A stretch of DNA of 64,000 bases, from positions 3,360,001-3,424,000 of the forward strand of contig NZ_HG315671.1 in assembly GCF_000723205.1 (NCBI RefSeq). Reading direction: 5' to 3'. Position numbers and translations under genes: made by a program. The notes under the pieces were generated by a model, which was given only the letters and a program-made list of their open reading frames with translations, did not search any database and had not been told where the DNA came from. Positions 3,957-63,764 of the stretch are shown here, piece by piece (within the stretch, counting starts at the first letter, position 1; each line of letters begins with the position of its first letter). The stretch comes from Formosa agariphila KMM 3901. GTDB taxonomy: Bacteria > Bacteroidota > Bacteroidia > Flavobacteriales > Flavobacteriaceae.

Positions 3957-6389
3957 ATGAGAGTGCTTTTCTTAGCCCTATTTGTTAGTATGTTTCTATT
4001 TAGTTGCGAAACTAATACTTCTACACATCGTAGTTTAATTGAATTTGTTCCCGAAGGAACTTCAACTTTAATAAAAACTAATAATATTGAAGACCTTAAG
4101 AGCAGCCTAACTAACAACGATTTAATTCAGGAATTTAAAACGGCATCATTTTACAAATCATTAGATAACGTTTTTAAAAACACAACAGCTTTTAAACCAA
4201 AGTCTGAAGCTCTTTTCTGTTTTTCTGAAGATAATTTAGATAGCACACAAGTTACCTTAATTACAAAATACACAGCAGATTTATTTCAGTTCGATTCGTT
4301 ATCTCAACCAAAACAAGAACATTCAAAATTTAAAAATACCACAATTACAAAAACACAACTCAACACCGAGATTTTATATAGTGTTGTTATAGATAGTGTT
4401 TTTATAGGTTCTACCTCGAAAACTATAATTGAAAACAGTCTAAACATAAAACCAGTAAGTGCAGAATTTCAAAGAATATATAACACTACAGCTACAGAAA
4501 AAACATTCGCGGTAATCTTAGATACCGAAAATTTAAAACCATCAACAGTATTTTTTAGTTCAGATTCTATTCCGCTTCAAAATTTCACAAAATACATTGC
4601 TTTAGACACCGATATTACCCAAGACCAAATTACTTTAAACGGTATAACTAAAGCTCCTGATTCTACAAATTTATTAATCAATATTTTTAAGAACACCATT
4701 CCACAGGAAAACAGAATCTCTGAAATTACTCCAGAAGATTCAGATGGATTTTTAAGTTTAACCTACCAAGACTTTAGCAACTTACAAGCCAACTTGGTTG
4801 CATATAATAACCAAGAACCACCAGAAACCACCTTATTTGACAACACAAATGAAATTGGTGTAATTTATAAAAACGAGCATCGCGCAATCGCTTTACTAAG
4901 TTTAGACGTTATTGCAACTAATGAAGCGTTACTCGATTCGCAAGAACCATTAGAGACCTTTCGCCAAATAGAGATTAAAAAGTTTGAACATCCTGACTGG
5001 TTTGTAAATACATTCTCTCCGCTTATTAAAACAACAACCGCTTCTTATTATGCAGAATTAGATTCCTTTTTTGTGTTTTCAGATAACTTAGAGTTACTTC
5101 AAAATATAATTGTCGCTTTTCAAAATAACTCAACTTTATCTAAACGCGATTTTTATCATAGCATTACTGAAGACTTGAGCGATGCATCGTCTTTATTATT
5201 AGTAGGAAATTCTAATTTATTAGCAGATGTCTTAGAGTCTAACTTTAATGTTGGTTCTAAAGTAAAAACTAACGATTACCGCATTTCGGCCATACAATAT
5301 ATATACGACTATAATTTTGCGCATGTAAACGCTGTTATAAAGAAAACTAGAACTAAAGCTAAAGAAAACTCGGTTAGCCAAGAGTTAAACATCAAATTAG
5401 ATGCAGAGCTTTTAAACAATCCACAATTTGTAACCAATCATATTTCTGGCGAAAAGGAAATTGTAGTACAAGATGTAAAAAATAACTTGTATTTAATTTC
5501 TAATAAAGGGAAAGTGCTTTGGAAAAAACAATTAGACGAAGCTATTCTTGGAGAGATTTCTCAAATAGATATGTATAAAAATGGTAGACTTCAGTTAGCA
5601 TTCACCACAGCTCACCACTTATATGTATTAGACAGAAACGGAAGAGATGCCAAACCGTTCCCAATAAACTTTAAAGATAAAGTTACGCAACCATTAGCTG
5701 TTTTCGATTACGACAATAATAAGAAGTATAGATTATTGGTTATTCAGGATCAAGACGTGTTAATGTACGATGCCCAAGGAAAAACGGTTAAAGGTTTTAA
5801 TTTTAAGAAAGCAAACAAAACCATTATCCACAAGCCACAACATTTTAGAGTTCGCGGAAAGGATTATTTAGTTTTTAAAACAAGCGATAAACTATACATA
5901 TTAAGCAGAACAGGTCAAGTACGTGTTACACCTAATAAATCGTTCACCTTTTCTAAAGAAGCTGTATATGTGTACAATAATAAATTTGCAACAACTACAG
6001 ACCAAGGTGATTTAATTCTTGTAGATACAAACGGAAAAGTCTCTAGCGAGAATTTAAATCTTGGAGAAAATCATCATATAGATGCAACAACTAGAACCAT
6101 GGTTGCGCAATCGGGCAACAAACTAACTATAAGAGATAAAACCTTAGAATTAGATTTCGGAAGTTATACGCCTGCAAAATTGTATCTTATAAATAATAAA
6201 ATCTATGTAACCACCACAGATTTACAAGCTCAAAAAGTTTATGTGTTTGACAGCCAAGGTGTAGAAATTTCTAATTTCCCTGTTTACGGAACAAGCGCCA
6301 TAGATTTAGCTAATCTAGATAAAGACAAGCCTTTAGAAGCTGTTACCAAAGGCAACGACAATGCAATAATTATATATCAGATTAATTAA
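3957..6389 (+). CDS. Large lipoprotein with C-terminal propeller-like repeats
   Basis: An 810-aa protein with a lipoprotein signal (hydrophobic residues 3-15, lipobox LFSC with Cys17), so probably anchored in the periplasm or outer membrane. The first ~480 residues form a domain I do not recognise. From about residue 490 to the end there are repeats of the type hydrophobic strand, then DxxG/NKGK, then strand (NLYLISNKGKVLWKKQ, HLYVLDRNGRD, DVLMYDAQGKTVKGF, KLYILSRTGQV, KVYVFDSQGVEI). These resemble blades of a PQQ/WD-type beta propeller. No catalytic motif was seen. It follows rnhB by 29 bp. Its function is unknown, perhaps protein-protein binding in the envelope. Confidence 0.8.
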   Translation: MRVLFLALFVSMFLFSCETNTSTHRSLIEFVPEGTSTLIKTNNIEDLKSSLTNNDLIQEFKTASFYKSLDNVFKNTTAFKPKSEALFCFSEDNLDSTQVTLITKYTADLFQFDSLSQPKQEHSKFKNTTITKTQLNTEILYSVVIDSVFIGSTSKTIIENSLNIKPVSAEFQRIYNTTATEKTFAVILDTENLKPSTVFFSSDSIPLQNFTKYIALDTDITQDQITLNGITKAPDSTNLLINIFKNTIPQENRISEITPEDSDGFLSLTYQDFSNLQANLVAYNNQEPPETTLFDNTNEIGVIYKNEHRAIALLSLDVIATNEALLDSQEPLETFRQIEIKKFEHPDWFVNTFSPLIKTTTASYYAELDSFFVFSDNLELLQNIIVAFQNNSTLSKRDFYHSITEDLSDASSLLLVGNSNLLADVLESNFNVGSKVKTNDYRISAIQYIYDYNFAHVNAVIKKTRTKAKENSVSQELNIKLDAELLNNPQFVTNHISGEKEIVVQDVKNNLYLISNKGKVLWKKQLDEAILGEISQIDMYKNGRLQLAFTTAHHLYVLDRNGRDAKPFPINFKDKVTQPLAVFDYDNNKKYRLLVIQDQDVLMYDAQGKTVKGFNFKKANKTIIHKPQHFRVRGKDYLVFKTSDKLYILSRTGQVRVTPNKSFTFSKEAVYVYNNKFATTTDQGDLILVDTNGKVSSENLNLGENHHIDATTRTMVAQSGNKLTIRDKTLELDFGSYTPAKLYLINNKIYVTTTDLQAQKVYVFDSQGVEISNFPVYGTSAIDLANLDKDKPLEAVTKGNDNAIIIYQIN

Positions 6390-43868: not shown

Positions 43869-44693
43869 TTACTTAAATAACATAATATCGGTGTAGCTAC
43901 TATTGTAATTAACACTGGTATTAACCTCCAATTTGGTAGCATGAGCAAACGGATTAGTAGTTAATGTTCTGTTACCAACCCACTCACAAAGCTCTATAAT
44001 TGAAGACTTATTTGAAGTAAAATAGAAGTATCTATGTCCTTCTAAAACACTCAGGACATCTAAGTAGTCCGTTAAGTTCCAATAATTCTTATACGTTACC
44101 GACGTTGTTTGTAAATAAGGTGGATCAATTAAAAACACAACCTTATCGCTATCCTTGTACTGTTCAAACAACACTTTATAATCTAAGCTCACAATATCCA
44201 ATCCGTTTAAATATCCCTCAGCTTTATAATCGCTCATTCTAATGCAATTATACAGAGTGCTTTTTACTAAATCCTCATAATTAAGCACGTACTTCATACT
44301 AAACAATAAAGATGAAGACAACGTAATATAATCTACATAGTTATATTGGTCTTCATGTCTTTTTATCGCTTTTAAGACGTTTTCTCTGGTTACACCAGTA
44401 ATACGCTTATCCTTTGGCCATTCGCTTATTAGCATGCGTAGTTTCTCTAATAAGTTATTGGTCTCAGGTATCGCATTAATACGCTTACGATAATTATCGA
44501 AGTCATTATAGACAACTGTAGCATTTGGATAGTGTTGTTTTGCTGTATGTGCTAGCAAACCACTCCCACCAAATAAATCGACATATATTCCGTCTGGGGG
44601 ATAGTTATGCAAAGCATCCTTAAAAGATTTAATAAATTTCCGTTTCTGACCCATAAACGGCAAAGGCGCAGTGTTGTACACTTTTTTACTCAT
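43869..44693 (-). CDS. DNA adenine methylase (Dam-type), prophage-encoded
   Basis: A 274-aa N6-adenine methyltransferase. The N-terminal APLPFMGQKRKFIKSF is the class alpha opening (KW-G-K-type). VDLFGGSGLLAHTAK gives the SAM-binding FxGxG motif, and VFLIDPPYLQT the catalytic DPPY motif (about 205-215). The ATG at 44693 is chosen because the 60 residues that a longer frame would add are non-homologous and overlap the hairpin element. Location at the extreme end of the prophage parallels Mu mom. It probably modifies phage DNA against restriction; the target sequence is unknown. Confidence 0.9.
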   Translation of the reverse strand: MSKKVYNTAPLPFMGQKRKFIKSFKDALHNYPPDGIYVDLFGGSGLLAHTAKQHYPNATVVYNDFDNYRKRINAIPETNNLLEKLRMLISEWPKDKRITGVTRENVLKAIKRHEDQYNYVDYITLSSSLLFSMKYVLNYEDLVKSTLYNCIRMSDYKAEGYLNGLDIVSLDYKVLFEQYKDSDKVVFLIDPPYLQTTSVTYKNYWNLTDYLDVLSVLEGHRYFYFTSNKSSIIELCEWVGNRTLTTNPFAHATKLEVNTSVNYNSSYTDIMLFK

Positions 44694-44708
44694 TTTACTA
44701 TTCGTTTT

Positions 44709-44742
44709 TTGATTAATGATTGATTGATGTTTACTATATTTG
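44709..44742 (+). promoter_or_regulatory. Plus-strand promoter of the hairpin RNA candidate
   Basis: TTG (44709-44711), a 23-bp spacer (at the upper limit of the reported range) and TATATTTG (44735-44742) point rightward, against the surrounding late operon. The start would be about 44748, at the first base pairs of the hairpin. Confidence 0.5.
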
Positions 44743-44745
44743 TGC

Positions 44746-44845
44746 CTCTCACAACCCAAAACAATAAAGCCCAAAGACTCTGAAAGACATATTGTCCTCC
44801 AGTAGCCTTTGGGCTTGTGTTTTAAAGGTTGTGAGAGATTTTTAA
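44746..44845 (+). ncRNA. Candidate structured RNA in the prophage
   Basis: CTCTCACAACC (44746-44756) pairs perfectly with GGTTGTGAGAG (44827-44837), and AGCCCAAAG (44768-44776) with CTTTGGGCT (44807-44815). Both stems share the same centre and are separated by symmetric 11-nt internal loops. A small GACA/TGTC stem lies at the tip. A plus-strand promoter precedes it and ATTTTT follows, so a ~95-nt RNA with a terminator-like end is plausible. It lies between the methylase and a secreted-protein gene and is antisense to the late transcript. Alternatives are a leader structure on the minus strand or a MITE-like inverted repeat. Confidence 0.4.
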
Positions 44846-44888
44846 ACGCTGGGGGACTTTTATATAATCCCACCTTAATAATCGTTGA

Positions 44889-59055: not shown

Positions 59056-60060
59056 TTAAGCTTTACCAGAGATAATAGCTGCACTACCTTCAATACCGTA
59101 GGCTACTATAATATGATACACTTGGAAACCAACTGTGTTTTCTCTGTTTTCTGGATCTAGTTCTGCTGGTCTCGCAAAACGTGTTACTGTTCCTGCAGCT
59201 TTAGCTGTAGAACCTTTATGGAATACTACAGAAGATTTACGTCCAATAGTTACAGAACCGTAAGCTAACTTAGCTAATGTGGTATCGTCGTATTCTGGAG
59301 TTGTAGAATCTTCATAGATTTTAAATCCATAGTAACGCCCACTAATTACACCCTCTGTTTGGTTGTGGTATTGCGTATAGAATTTTCTATCCTCTTCTAA
59401 TAAATCAGACACGTGATCGTCGCATAAGATTAAGATTCTACCTTTTTTATTAATACCCTTTTTGTTCATCTTAGCTTGTAAAGTTCTCAAGTCTTTAGTG
59501 GTTAACTTTAAACGTCCAGTTCCGTCATTTTCTCCAGTTGTTTCTAAAACAAATTGATTTTCGGCCTCATCGTTTTCTTGAGGTGCTAATCCCCAAATAC
59601 CGTACTCCATAGTTTCATCTTCTAGAGTTTCGCGGTGCTGCATTTGTACATCACTTGTTTTTTCGTATGGTAATGCGTAAAGTTCATCTTTAGTAACGAT
59701 GGTGTTTTCTGTGTCAAACTTGTTTAAAGACACCACTACGTGGCTATCGTCTCTACCATTCTTTACAATTGGGTAATTGGTATTGTTTATTAATACTGCA
59801 GGTGCTGCACCACGTTTAGGAATTTTAATGGTGTCGTTGTTTACCCAACTTTGTTTAGATCTAATTTCAGACGCCCACGTGTGTTCGTGGCGTAACTGCT
59901 TAATCATTTCCTTTTCTGCTAATTGATTTTTAACAGGTAAGGCTACTGTGGTTACAGCAAAAGATACAGCACCGCCAGACGATCCTGTAAAAGCGTGACC
60001 AACTACAGTCACTAAAAGAATAGCAACGATTGCTAATACAAATTTTGAAATATTTTTCAT
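59056..60060 (-). CDS. Major capsid protein with hydrophobic N-terminus
   Basis: A 334-aa protein directly after the protease/scaffold gene, where the major head subunit lies in Mu-like phages. The body has head-protein features (WASEIRSKQSWVNNDTIKIP, NTNYPIVKNGRDDSHVVVSL, KLTTKDLRTLQAKMNKKGIN, KGRILILCDDHVSDLLEED, HKGSTAKAAGTVTRFARPAE). Residues 7-24 (FVLAIVAILLVTVVGHAF) look like a signal peptide or membrane helix, which is unusual for a capsid protein. The upstream methionine at residue 1 has good spacing, and no later ATG is obvious before residue 52. Confidence 0.78.
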   Translation of the reverse strand: MKNISKFVLAIVAILLVTVVGHAFTGSSGGAVSFAVTTVALPVKNQLAEKEMIKQLRHEHTWASEIRSKQSWVNNDTIKIPKRGAAPAVLINNTNYPIVKNGRDDSHVVVSLNKFDTENTIVTKDELYALPYEKTSDVQMQHRETLEDETMEYGIWGLAPQENDEAENQFVLETTGENDGTGRLKLTTKDLRTLQAKMNKKGINKKGRILILCDDHVSDLLEEDRKFYTQYHNQTEGVISGRYYGFKIYEDSTTPEYDDTTLAKLAYGSVTIGRKSSVVFHKGSTAKAAGTVTRFARPAELDPENRENTVGFQVYHIIVAYGIEGSAAIISGKA

Positions 60061-60141: not shown

Positions 60142-61296
60142 TTATTGTTTACTGAAGTAAGCCGCTTCTAAGGCTTCAGCTTCTTTTGGTTTTTCTGCTT
60201 TTAATTTTTCGTAGGCTTCAGGATCATTATCTAAATAATCTTCTAAAGTCCAATTGGCTTTAACAGATGCACTACCTGTAGTACTTTCTTCTCCTTTAAG
60301 CTGTGCGCTTAATTTTTCTTTAGAAGGCATTGCAGCAATAACCTTTTCGGTTGCATCAAAATTAGCTTTAGCCAAATCAGTATAATGTGGAGCTTCATCT
60401 GCAGAAAACTTCTTTTCAGAAATCCCTTTATTTACTAAGGCTTCTACTTTTGTATTGGCTTCAGTTTCGGCCTTGTCTTTATCGGCTTCTGCTTGAGAGC
60501 GTTGTTTTAAAGCGTCAACTTTCATAGCGCGCTTAGCTGCCTCGATTTGTTCATCGGTAGCATTGGAATCAAGCCCTAAAAAGGCAATCAATTCATCTTT
60601 ATCCATAATATTAGTTTTAGATTTATGTTCGGTTTTCCCTTGAGTTTCGGATTGTACTTCTGGAATTATAGGCGCACCACAGGCAACTAAAGACATCACA
60701 TCGGTATCTGTAAAGGCTTCTACTTCGCCTTCAATAGCATCAACAAAACCTTCTTTAAGCAGTTCATCTGCATTCATCCAGTAGTCACCAGAATCCCATA
60801 AGGCTTTAATTTGTTTTACCGTTTTTCCTGTTTTATTAGCATAGGCTTTAGCATAATCTTCTGTAATGTTTTCACCCAATTTTAAAGTACTTCTCACTTC
60901 CTTAACATTACCCTTTACACTTAAAATAGGCATATGTATCATACCTTGAGTATTGGCTTTTACAGTGGTGTGGTAATGCGATGTTAGATAAGTAAATGCA
61001 GATGCCATTAAAGCATGTACTTTAATTTGTACGGTATCGTATTTGTCAAAAAGAGCTTTCATGTCGTTAGTGGCAAATACAGAACCACCTTCACTGCTAC
61101 CTTCTATAATTGCATCTTTTACACCAGCGGCTATAGAGTTTTCTACCTCGCGTCTTAAAATACTTTCCTGGTCTGCACTCCAAGACCAAATGCGACCAAC
61201 TATATTAAAGTAAGCCACATTGTTATTAACAGCCGCTTCTATGCTGCCAACTTGTTTCTTGCCTTCTGTAAAGGCTATAATTTTATTCCATTTCAC
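60142..61296 (-). CDS. Head maturation protease with fused scaffold (Mu I/Z-like)
   Basis: A 384-aa protein. Residues 20-195 look ClpP/S49-like: VAYFNIVGRIWSWSADQES, EGSSEGGSVFATNDMKAL (GGS loop), LMASAFTYLTSHY (nucleophile Ser), TQGMIHMPILS (His), and LLKEGFVDAIEG. Residues 230-384 are charged and coiled-coil (scaffold). An internal ATG at 60605 (MDKDELIAFLGL) would start a free 154-aa scaffold, as Z is made from within I in Mu. Start is GTG at 61296, only 4 bp from the promoter-like CATTTTTG. Confidence 0.82.
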   Translation of the reverse strand: MKWNKIIAFTEGKKQVGSIEAAVNNNVAYFNIVGRIWSWSADQESILRREVENSIAAGVKDAIIEGSSEGGSVFATNDMKALFDKYDTVQIKVHALMASAFTYLTSHYHTTVKANTQGMIHMPILSVKGNVKEVRSTLKLGENITEDYAKAYANKTGKTVKQIKALWDSGDYWMNADELLKEGFVDAIEGEVEAFTDTDVMSLVACGAPIIPEVQSETQGKTEHKSKTNIMDKDELIAFLGLDSNATDEQIEAAKRAMKVDALKQRSQAEADKDKAETEANTKVEALVNKGISEKKFSADEAPHYTDLAKANFDATEKVIAAMPSKEKLSAQLKGEESTTGSASVKANWTLEDYLDNDPEAYEKLKAEKPKEAEALEAAYFSKQ

Positions 61297-61300
61297 AAGG

Positions 61301-61308
61301 CAAAAATG
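61301..61308 (-). promoter_or_regulatory. -7-like box of the leftward late operon
   Basis: The minus strand reads CATTTTTG, 7 of 8 matches to TAnnTTTG, 4 bp upstream of the GTG start at 61296. Its last G is exactly 66 bp from the centre of the dyad at 61367. A TTG lies 16 bp upstream. Confidence 0.5.
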
Positions 61309-61337
61309 CAGCAGATTAGACCCTCAAAAAAATTGGC

Positions 61338-61396
61338 ATTCTGATTCGGTAACTTTTGAGTACCGATTCGGTAAGATTTGGTTACCGATTCAGAAT
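61338..61396. promoter_or_regulatory. Symmetric operator between divergent prophage operons
   Basis: ATTCTGATTCGGTAAC (61338-61353) and GTTACCGATTCAGAAT (61381-61396) are inverted repeats (15 of 16), and the palindrome TACCGATTCGGTA (61361-61373) sits exactly in the middle, centre 61367. Each of the three contains the GATTCGGTA/TACCGATTC half-site. Both -7-like boxes are 66 bp from the centre. This looks like a binding array for one regulator that controls both late operons. Confidence 0.7.
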
Positions 61397-61425
61397 AAGA
61401 AATTTAATAAGCCATGCCACTGTTA

Positions 61426-61433
61426 GATATTTG
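61426..61433 (+). promoter_or_regulatory. -7-like box of the rightward late operon
   Basis: GATATTTG is 7 of 8 to TAnnTTTG, with its last G at 61433, 66 bp from the dyad centre. No -33 TTG is present, so activation by a bound regulator is likely. The following CCCTGT resembles CCTTGT after the opposite box. Confidence 0.5.
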
Positions 61434-61453: not shown

Positions 61454-61993
61454 ATGGCAAAAGATAAAGAGCGCGGCATTGCTAGAATTTGGTATGTAGA
61501 CCAAGGCAAAACAGCTAAAGAGATTGCAAGTAAATTAAAACTAACAGAGCTTACTGTTGGGGCTTGGGTAAAAAAATACGGATGGAAAGAGGAGCGTAAT
61601 GCTCGAGAAAACTCTGTAGACAAACGTGTCGATAACATTAAAAGTGTGATTGATGATATTACAGAAGATCGCAGTTCTGCTCGTATTCGATTAAACGAGT
61701 TAAAGGCTGAATTAAAAGAAGCTCTTAAAGCCAAAGATGAAGACGAAATTCAGCTAAACAAAGACATGATTTCCGACATAAAAAAGGAAATTGTTGGTTA
61801 CGATGATGCCATAAGCAAATGGAACAAAACCTTAGAAAACTTCGATAAGGAAAACAAAGTTTCATTGTCTAGTTACTTGTATGTTATGGACGAAATTTTT
61901 AAGGATCTGCAAAGTTACGATCGTAGTATTTACATGACAACTCTAGACTTTCAAGAACAACACATTAACAAAGTAAGCATACAAATAGGATGA
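61454..61993 (+). CDS. Small terminase subunit-like protein
   Basis: A 179-aa protein. A helix-turn-helix in the first 50 residues (ARIWYVDQGKTAKEIASKLK, LTELTVGAWVKKYGWKEERN) is followed by a long coiled-coil region (about 55-140) and a short C-terminal tail. This HTH-plus-helical layout and its location two genes before the large terminase match small terminase/DUF1804-type proteins of Mu-like phages. It would recognise phage DNA for packaging. First gene of the rightward operon. Confidence 0.75.
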   Translation: MAKDKERGIARIWYVDQGKTAKEIASKLKLTELTVGAWVKKYGWKEERNARENSVDKRVDNIKSVIDDITEDRSSARIRLNELKAELKEALKAKDEDEIQLNKDMISDIKKEIVGYDDAISKWNKTLENFDKENKVSLSSYLYVMDEIFKDLQSYDRSIYMTTLDFQEQHINKVSIQIG

Positions 61994-62253
61994 TAAAAAA
62001 ATTATTAAGCCTGCTTTGGAATGGAGCAGAACCAAGACAATATTTTATAGAAGTTGGTGTCTATTTTCTAAAAAAAGGAGTTGGCTATGAGGTTGGCCAA
62101 ATTATAAGAGAAAAGAAAATTAACCATATAAAAGGCAAAAGCTTAAAGGTTTGGGTGGTTAAAGATATTACGTATAGTTTACGACATAATAAGGTTGATA
62201 GTGTACTTGAAACGCAATTAATTAACGAGAATAACAAATACAGGCTGGATTGA
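61990..62253 (+). CDS. Small protein between the terminase subunits
   Basis: An 87-aa basic protein (MIKKLLSLLWNGAEPRQYFIE...). Sequence is beta-rich with alternating Lys and hydrophobic residues (KSLKVWVVKDITYSLRHNKV). No recognised family. It overlaps the upstream gene by 4 bp and the terminase start by 4 bp, so it is translated as part of the packaging operon. Function unknown. Confidence 0.65.
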   Translation: MIKKLLSLLWNGAEPRQYFIEVGVYFLKKGVGYEVGQIIREKKINHIKGKSLKVWVVKDITYSLRHNKVDSVLETQLINENNKYRLD

Positions 62254-63764
62254 AAAGGGACGATAAATTAGCATTAGAACGCTATAAAAAGCGGTTAGAA
62301 TTTGCGCGAAGTGCAGGCGAAGTCAATCCTTTTGAGACTACACAGGAACAAAAGAATAGGATTGCACGTTGTAAATCGTCTTACGAATCTATGTGTACCG
62401 AATACTTTCCTCACTATGCAACTTCAAAACCTGCAGCCAGTCATTTAGAATCGGCAAACTACATACTAAAGCACAAAACAGGTAAAAAGTTTGACGAGAT
62501 GCCTCGTGGTTTTGGTAAATCTGTTATGGACAATGTGCTTATTCCAATATGGCTTTGGATGAATGACCAAGCTCATTATATGGTTGTTGTAACAGTAAGT
62601 AAAGACCGTGCTTCAGAATTGCTAGAAGACATACGAGCTGAGTTTGAAGGTAATCCCAAAATTATACATGATTTTGGTGAGCAATACAATATTGGACAAT
62701 GGGAAAAAGGGTTCTTTATTACTAAAAGTGGGTTTGTTGGTAAGGCTCTTGGTGCAGGTCAATCTGTAAGAGGATTACGTGTAAAAAGTAGACGTCCAGA
62801 TTACATAGTGGTCGATGATTTAGAGACTAAAGAAACGATTAAAAACCCAAAACGACAAGATGATTTAGTAAAGTGGATTGAGCGTGACCTTATCCCGACT
62901 ATGGATGGGGATATACGTCGTTTTACTTATGCAAATAACCGTTTTGCTCCTGTAATGATTCAAACTAAATTACAGGAACGCCATCCAAAATGGAAAGTGA
63001 TTCACGTTAAAGCTTACGACCCTATAACCTATAAACCTACATGGCCTGAGAAATACTCAGACACGTATTACAAGGAGTTGGAATCTGAAATTGGAACATT
63101 AGCGTGTCAAGCTGAATATTTACAAATACCCCATGTAGAAGGTGCTATCTTTAAACAAGAACACATACAGTGGTCGCCATTACCAAAGCTTAATCAATAT
63201 AAAATAATTGTTGGAACTTGGGATGTTGCATATTCTGGGAAGTCTACAGGAGATTATAATGCTATAGCTGTACAAGGCTTATGGAATAAAAATTTTTATG
63301 TTATAGACACTTTTGTAAAGCAATGTAAAATGCGCGATGCTGTTGCCTACATGTGCGATTTTCAAAAGCGATTACCAAAAACTGTTATTGTGCATTGGCG
63401 TTTTGAAGCTCAGTTCTGGAACGACGAAGTAGAACGTATTATTAAAGAAACCGAAACCGCTTTTGGTATTAAACTAAACATTGTAAAGTTTACTGTGCCT
63501 AAAGTTAAAAAGTACGACCGTGTGTTAACCCTGCATCCGTATTACCAAAATAGTCGCATTTTCTACAACGAAAATTTAAAAAGCCACAACGATACTCAAG
63601 TAGGTATTGCGCAATTACTAGGTATAGAACCCAACTATAAAACGCACGACGATTTTCCAGATACACACCAACAAGGAATCGCATTTTTAGAACCTTACAA
63701 CCAACCTAATACAGGGCTTAATTACCACCAAGGCAAAATGCGCCCTAAAAACGAACGGATATGA
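62250..63764 (+). CDS. Terminase large subunit
   Basis: A 504-aa packaging motor. ATPase domain: Walker A FDEMPRGFGKSVMDNVLIPI (about 80-99) and Walker B PDYIVVDDLETKE (about 185-197). Nuclease (RNase H-like) domain: IVGTWDVAYSGKSTGDYNAI (about 321-340) with Asp, then later acidic residues. Start is TTG at 62250, overlapping the preceding TGA; the next ATG would remove about 46 residues. It cuts and pumps DNA into heads. The next gene starts within its stop codon (ATGA). Confidence 0.92.
   Translation: MKRDDKLALERYKKRLEFARSAGEVNPFETTQEQKNRIARCKSSYESMCTEYFPHYATSKPAASHLESANYILKHKTGKKFDEMPRGFGKSVMDNVLIPIWLWMNDQAHYMVVVTVSKDRASELLEDIRAEFEGNPKIIHDFGEQYNIGQWEKGFFITKSGFVGKALGAGQSVRGLRVKSRRPDYIVVDDLETKETIKNPKRQDDLVKWIERDLIPTMDGDIRRFTYANNRFAPVMIQTKLQERHPKWKVIHVKAYDPITYKPTWPEKYSDTYYKELESEIGTLACQAEYLQIPHVEGAIFKQEHIQWSPLPKLNQYKIIVGTWDVAYSGKSTGDYNAIAVQGLWNKNFYVIDTFVKQCKMRDAVAYMCDFQKRLPKTVIVHWRFEAQFWNDEVERIIKETETAFGIKLNIVKFTVPKVKKYDRVLTLHPYYQNSRIFYNENLKSHNDTQVGIAQLLGIEPNYKTHDDFPDTHQQGIAFLEPYNQPNTGLNYHQGKMRPKNERI

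Follow-up and report, generated by a model that had tools for sequence, protein, structure and literature searches.

How could a Mu-like prophage start two divergent late operons together? This question is raised by a 59-bp dyad centred on position 61367 of the window, by which we mean the whole 64,000-nt stretch of DNA analysed here (G000:C1:3360001-3424000, from the 4.23-Mb genome of Formosa agariphila KMM 3901). The original prediction, made from the letters of the window, took the dyad for a mirror-symmetric control region through which one regulator could act on both operons. Our reading, to which we assign a probability of roughly two in three, is that one late switch works in both directions from the dyad, its only regulator site, and that the activator is most likely HTH60, a helix-turn-helix (HTH) protein of about 60 amino acids, bound as two dimers. 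The features of the site are listed here.

61338..61396, no strand: 59-bp dyad, candidate shared regulator site, from sequence and comparison; centre 61367
61343..61369, no strand: left operator, GATTCGGTA-N9-TACCGATTC; centre 61356
61365..61391, no strand: right operator, GATTCGGTA-N9-TACCGATTC; centre 61378; overlaps the left operator within TACCGATTCGGTA (61361-61373)
61301..61308, minus strand: left -7-like element CATTTTTG, a putative promoter element; TTTG at 61304-61301, starting 63 bp from the centre
61426..61433, plus strand: right -7-like element GATATTTG, a putative promoter element; TTTG at 61430-61433, starting 63 bp from the centre
61326..61332, minus strand: T-run in the -33 region of the left promoter strand; T in 36/36 non-redundant loci (defined below) at offsets 35-37 from the centre

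The dyad stood up as originally described, with 21/29 arm positions complementary around its centre. Using 32-bp arms, the observed score was 21. In 30 dinucleotide-preserving shuffles of the 200 bp that precede the gene for TerS, a terminase small subunit-like protein, the best centre reached 16.0 +/- 1.0 (maximum 19). A chance dyad was set aside on these scores together with the arm pairing at the midpoint in relatives, described below. The half-sites had been placed in three groups sharing one centre; the grouping is sound, but there are actually four half-sites, and the overlap of the inner two, which forms a 13-bp palindrome at the centre, gives the appearance of three. The dyad can be described as two overlapping operators with centres 22 bp apart. 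Zero-mismatch copies of GATTCGGTA occur twice in the 64-kb window, both within the dyad (61343-61351 and 61365-61373). Their opposite-strand partners with one mismatch (61361-61369 and 61383-61391) also lie inside it, and the remaining 16 one-mismatch matches in the window lie outside.

The outward octamers were found exactly at the positions first given, ending at 61301 and 61433, each 66 bp from 61367, with the dyad midway between them. They are followed as described by CCCTGT on the right (after GATATTTG) and CCTTGT on the minus strand on the left (after CATTTTTG). The dyad edge stops about 33 bp short of each TTTG and does not reach the -33/-7 region. As predicted, no TTTG is present at -33 on the right; on the left TTTTTTTG occupies this place, but across the family the left feature is a T-run in which the G is not conserved. 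Apart from the region itself, a DNA search of the whole genome with the 133 bp returned 21 matches, all of them short and weak (best E 0.04). When the genome of the window's phage was scanned with its own operator, the best other match scored 11.8 versus 34.7 and 36.1 for the two operators themselves, and no second copy rose above shuffle level.

The same geometry had been expected in related prophages. TerS searches supplied loci from viral contigs, genomes and GTDB contigs, from which 78 upstream regions were taken (11/11 of one search, 66/80 of another, and the window). Removing 10 with identical upstream 200 bp left 68 non-identical terminase-upstream regions; outside this set are the other 14 of the 80 (many of them further copies; the distinct L048 was used later) and the loci L021 and L022. 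A CAAA...TTTG pair was spaced at 126 bp in 43 of the 68 loci, at 125 bp in 10, at 124 bp in one, at 127 bp in three and at 128 bp in two, so that the distance between the outward TTTG motifs was 124-128 bp in 59/68. Other separations between 60 and 200 bp occurred on average in 1.09 loci, with a maximum of 8. A palindrome search that ignored the promoters placed its best centre 62-64 bp from both elements in 28/68 loci, with quite different dyads among them (L120 AGGAGTGTATTCCT; L065 ATGGGT-N9-ACCCAT; L036 CGTGTGT; L092 TTTAGTAAC).

Thinning the 43 exact 126-bp loci at 75% identity gave 36 non-redundant loci. In these, arms formed on average 16.4 complementary pairs of 30 at the midpoint, compared with 7.1-9.6 at centres shifted by 0.5-3 bp, and arms of the same phage matched better than arms of different phages (16.4 versus 11.7; permutation p 0.0001). 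The pairing at the midpoint and the better match within a phage indicate that the geometry is kept while the letters turn over, both arms changing together. Conservation among relatives thus holds for the spacing, but the dyad letters differ widely between phages. Beyond this set, Elizabethkingia phage TCUEAP3 has a pair at 126 bp, with a dyad centre 63.0 bp from the left element, and a Porphyromonas phage has a pair at 124 bp, with a dyad centre 62.0 bp from both. The separation in MT835523 is 145 bp, which differs from the family ruler, and fF4 has no such TTTG pair. By comparison of sequences, one symmetric site is equidistant from two outward predicted promoters of late operons; the dyad, its exact geometry, its conservation and the lack of a second copy above shuffle level in nearly all phages are established on that basis.

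Three side observations concern the same region. In the decayed prophage at L200:9975-10110, the head genes are deleted, yet the dyad and both outward elements are kept (125 bp); we did not count it as evidence. In L039, upstream of TerS (643), tandem repeats of about 21 bp (CCCATGATGGTAAGCATACG) replace the usual dyad, and HTH60 is present. In TCUEAP3 (OK632026; L213:14394), the annotated start of the terminase small subunit falls inside the dyad, before the TTTG, and the true start is probably further downstream.

Alignment of the 36 loci on the centre resolved the elements themselves. An A three bases before TTTG was present in 94-97% on both sides, and a T-run 26-28 bases before it in 100% on the left and 64-89% on the right. 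The first base of the octamer, at offset 59 from the centre (61308 and 61426 in the window), was T in 0/36 loci on the right and 1/36 on the left. The host consensus is TAnnTTTG at -7 with TTTG at -33, the latter playing a lesser role (PMC7366714 and PMC2483708, excerpts). Since A-N-N-TTTG is kept, the first T of the consensus is nearly absent and TTTG at -33 is not conserved, the elements look like weakened host promoters. It had also been proposed that the left operon may be leaderless. Its first gene, a protease, begins with GTG at 61296, near the predicted transcription start and 71 bp away from the dyad centre. An ATG or GTG lies within 7 nt of the left TTTG in 14/59 loci, 11 of them at 4 nt, compared with only 4/59 equally close on the right. 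Judging from these positions, leaderless translation of the protease is possible in the window's phage and in those 14 loci, but the other loci do not fit and there is no family rule.

The candidate regulator emerged when open reading frames of 22 largely complete phages were clustered. HTH60 was recovered in 18/22 by BLAST clustering and in 21/22 with a profile, the copy of L069 being divergent (E 4e-7); L067 gave no match by either approach. The gene of the window's phage lies outside the window:

L009:7383-7565 = G000:C1:3428383-3428565 (window coordinates would be 68383-68565), minus strand: HTH60 gene, 60 aa

The last right late gene, which runs towards it, ends 507 bp away, with one small gene between. 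HTH60 is convergent with the end of that gene and within 510 bp of it in 20/21 phages; the two 3' ends overlap or are at most 80 bp apart in 18/21, and are 370 bp apart in L111. The window's whole genome contains one HTH60 match, and 9/9 other whole bacterial genomes contain exactly one each; counting these nine, 25/48 further records have a match. Similarity searches with HTH60 led to 24 contigs, 11 of them new relative to the TerS lists. Three of the new ones (L198, L199 and L203) carry a 126-bp pair beside TerS, with arm scores of 14, 13 and 20; L200 is the decayed prophage, and L191, L192, L197 and L208-L210 end before the place. Further operator copies were sought in 21 phages (L067 being outside the scan), with 12 shuffles each, and in 20/21 the best other match did not exceed the best shuffle. 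In L045 a second match scored 19.0 versus a shuffle maximum of 19.3. This match and one in L048 lie inside GemA-like genes; they were judged to be conserved coding stretches and rejected as operators. The co-occurrence and location of HTH60 are well documented in the compared sequences, and the original proposal of shared symmetric control gains support from the equal distances, the lack of a second operator copy and the position of this gene.

Database comparisons did not connect HTH60 to a named family. Three HTH60 proteins run against Pfam (E up to 1) produced neither a Mor/C match nor a name for the family, four run against PHROGs produced nothing below E 0.04, and a PDB sequence search gave nothing significant. 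The structural model (predicted local distance difference test, pLDDT, 87) shows one long helix and two short strands, with an HTH at the C-terminus. Foldseek found no PDB match to it at E <= 0.001; many of the weak matches (E above 1) are homeodomain or GerE-type DNA-binding domains, and Mor is absent from the best 50 of 133. A consensus TAnnTTTG is located within 30 bp of the HTH60 start codon in 15/24 phages; the window's own copy has no exact TAnnTTTG. By eye, this element directly follows a terminator-like hairpin in several phages.

Similar HTH60 recognition helices tend to accompany similar half-sites: EVKTIEDIIF occurs with CGGTA, SPKTIENIVF often with TAGTA, and LRPKT with AGGA. For covariation, L039, L055 and L056 were dropped for want of a centre, leaving 41 phages. 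In a partial Mantel test, the dyad correlated with the HTH60 C-terminus when TerS was accounted for (r 0.385, p 0.001), versus r 0.034 (p 0.33) for TerS when HTH60 was accounted for. The HTH of TerS varies little among phages with different dyads. Column-by-column covariation, run on the 31 phages with a separation of 126 thinned to 23, was suggestive only: pairs with z > 4 numbered 9/845 for HTH60 versus 8/2223 for TerS, and recognition-helix columns were among the highest, along with some N-terminal columns. Across protein families, the repressor, transposases A and B, GemA-like, DUF3164 and other early families had partial correlations of at most 0.03, below HTH60. The early S24 repressor (partial -0.06) was rejected as the binder of the dyad, its covariation being about zero.

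The prophage takes up the last 20 kb of the window and continues in L009. Its late genes nearest the dyad are given here.

60142..61296, minus strand: head maturation protease, ClpP-like, first gene of the left late operon; Mu I-like model below cut-off
59056..60060, minus strand: major head protein, second gene of the left operon; tail genes next
61454..61993, plus strand: TerS, terminase small subunit-like HTH protein (HTH match), first gene of the right late operon
62250..63764, plus strand: terminase large subunit; the right operon continues past the window end

After the head protein, the left operon encodes an amidase, sheath, tape measure and other tail proteins. Further right are portal and head genes, named after Peternella homologues, and beyond them a leftward early region with transposases A and B and an S24-type repressor. 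The transposase A/B genes, the S24/CI-like repressor and Mu-like head genes identify the prophage as Mu-like. The transposase matched phrog_310 (E 4.5e-52) and the repressor matched Peptidase S24 and phrog_4, and the MuB C-terminal model, like that of the Mu I-like protease, fell below the cut-off. The closest named phage is Winogradskyella phage Peternella_1 (Winoviridae), whose terminase is 76.8% identical. At the left prophage end is a D12-class adenine DNA methyltransferase gene (window 43869-44873), and Peternella_1 also ends with a methyltransferase. HTH60 is separated from the early operon by two plus-strand genes (285 and 149 aa; L009:8878-10186) that have the look of an accessory insertion.

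We propose that a phage regulator, most likely the HTH60 product, would bind the two overlapping operators as two dimers which, being 22 bp or two helical turns apart, would sit on one face of the DNA and serve both sides. If transcription starts 4-7 nt after TTTG, each promoter would have operator centres near -60 and -82, in the usual distance range of upstream activators. The promoters would be weak without the activator because the first T of the consensus is almost never present and there is no conserved TTTG at -33. A single binding event could then turn on both operons at once, that of the terminase and portal and that of the protease, capsid and tail. From the evidence above we infer that the promoters are active, that HTH60 binds, that it activates rather than represses, that two dimers occupy the site and that induction is simultaneous.

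Several observations weigh against this interpretation. Nine of the 68 loci (L039, L052, L055, L056, L059, L060, L067, L079 and L091) have no pair at 124-128 bp, and a relaxed element pattern rescued none of the eight tried (L059 being outside this test). L055, L056 and L039 carry HTH60 nonetheless. In L201, which reaches past TerS, one element is TTTTTA and there is no strict pair. HTH60 was not matched in 23/48 further records; fragments account for many of these, but not for L052, L091 and L118, each longer than 30 kb, and L118 (33 kb) has the geometry. In L069, the weak HTH60 match is 5.7 kb away, and the second operator match in L048 scored 18.5 versus a shuffle maximum of 18.3. When 34 families were compared in 21 phages using three alignments, HTH60 ranked only 5th-10th (partial 0.10-0.16, p 0.08-0.11), below the tail tube (0.487), protease (0.249), adaptor (0.246) and baseplate hub protein (0.202). 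Part of the covariation may reflect shared descent of the late module. Because HTH60 did not come top in this comparison, its assignment as the binder is kept conditional. The main gap in the model is how HTH60 would be kept silent in the lysogen, as the gene often has a consensus-type promoter of its own.

The rank of HTH60 in those 21 phages and the geometry of L118 could also mean that the shared late-promoter site is bound by another phage or host protein and that HTH60 has a different role. TCUEAP3 and the Porphyromonas phage, which keep the pair without a significant match to the HTH60 profile, point the same way. We regard this as unlikely: the early and regulatory families covary with the dyad less than HTH60 does, a conserved host protein would leave the turnover of the site unexplained, and distant phages have small proteins in a similar place, of which the hankyphage one matches the HTH60 of L069 (E 6e-7). 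That the site instead serves a repressor, silencing both late operons in the lysogen, is quite improbable. Such dyads can serve repressors, and the consensus-type promoter of HTH60 in 15/24 phages could mean expression in the lysogen. A site that ends about 33 bp before each TTTG is outside the region between -33 and -7, the promoters depart from consensus in the manner of activator-dependent ones, and the S24 repressor does not covary with the dyad.

Two further explanations concern DNA handling. TerS might bind the dyad for packaging or autoregulation: it has an HTH, its start codon is 87 bp from the dyad centre, and gp38, its homologue in Peternella, carries the annotation of a DNA-binding transcriptional regulator. 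Pac sites are often near terS, and we counted this for the idea. It is nevertheless very improbable, as the link between dyad and TerS disappears when HTH60 is taken into account, the TerS HTH is alike across differing dyads, and packaging needs no equal spacing to two outward promoter-like elements. The dyad is also in mid-genome, whereas the hankyphage packages 29-31 bp of host DNA at its left end, like Mu (PMC12135933, excerpt). The central position, about 0.40-0.55 of record length in 20 other phage records where the dyad was located, and the adjoining protease gene might suggest a site that organises DNA. Mu has its strong gyrase site in the middle of the genome, close to the protease gene I. 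A central position is expected anyway from two late arms, and a specific DNA-binding protein fits well with the exact geometry of the promoters, the turnover of the sequence and half-sites that resemble operators, which makes a gyrase-like site extremely improbable.

For the late switch with HTH60 as activator, a wider rule can be stated: Bacteroidota transposable phages would share a 126-bp ruler, a symmetric two-dimer midpoint operator and a co-diverging, hitherto undescribed family of minimal HTH activators of about 60 aa, orthogonal in each lineage. We lean towards this generalisation, though only by a little. The geometric rule is precise and falsifiable from sequence alone. HTH60 could be the missing late activator of a phage family with a cultured member, and the natural pairs of site and protein would help to show how specificity shifts in so small an HTH protein. 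If the proposal is true, these pairs would also give laboratory strains of Bacteroidota compact two-way promoters, each insulated from the others.

Little seems to be known of how transposable phages outside Proteobacteria control their late genes, and none of the papers listed by searches of a limited collection described this for Bacteroidota transposable phages. Peternella_1 (Peternellavirus, Winoviridae) has been described as Mu-like, and the excerpt of that paper makes no mention of its late control (PMC8776804). It resembles the window's phage in gene order, in a pair at exactly 126 bp and in the presence of HTH60, and differs in its dyad letters (CATACGGAATC...). The Bacteroides hankyphage p00 has the divergent TerS-like/protease layout and a small HTH-like protein in a similar place, but a separation of 140 bp and no clear centred dyad. 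Its CI-like RepC has been characterised, and no late activator is named in the excerpt (PMC12135933). In distant Bacteroidota transposable phages, small HTH-like proteins are encoded in a position like that of HTH60 (L213, open reading frame from 20493; L215:19703-20044; L211:21192-21461; L212, open reading frame from 20834; all on the minus strand), and of these the hankyphage protein alone has a sequence link to HTH60.

With Mu C and Mor, the system shares late control in a transposable phage. The likeness to Mu C drawn in the original prediction carries over to gene position, which we take to resemble that of C; HTH60 itself lacks a Pfam match to the Mor/C family. C is encoded in the middle region of Mu, which has four separate late promoters, and at these the C dimer binds upstream of -35 (PMC4461284, excerpt), unlike the one shared symmetric site proposed here.

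The late promoters PP and PO of P2, which belong with the Ogr/Delta activators, are divergent. Those of the P2 operons PQ and ONMLKRS have a palindromic activator site and depend on Ogr, a CX2CX22CX4C zinc protein that recognises TGT-N12-ACA (PMC3931495, excerpt). In the P2-like phage Smp131, PP' (nt 4398-4381) and PO' (nt 4381-4398) are assigned to one 18-bp site, itself a prediction (PMC3931495, excerpt), so a shared site is no novelty in principle. By eye, neither the cysteine pattern in the HTH60 alignment nor any TGT in the 59-bp dyad was seen, and hence no TGT-N12-ACA. As predicted for Smp131, one site appears to be shared between late operons, and this kind of arrangement is already known. 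What differs here is the exact midpoint double operator, formed by two overlapping operators, the host promoter type, and the candidate regulator family, which is without the zinc motif of Ogr.
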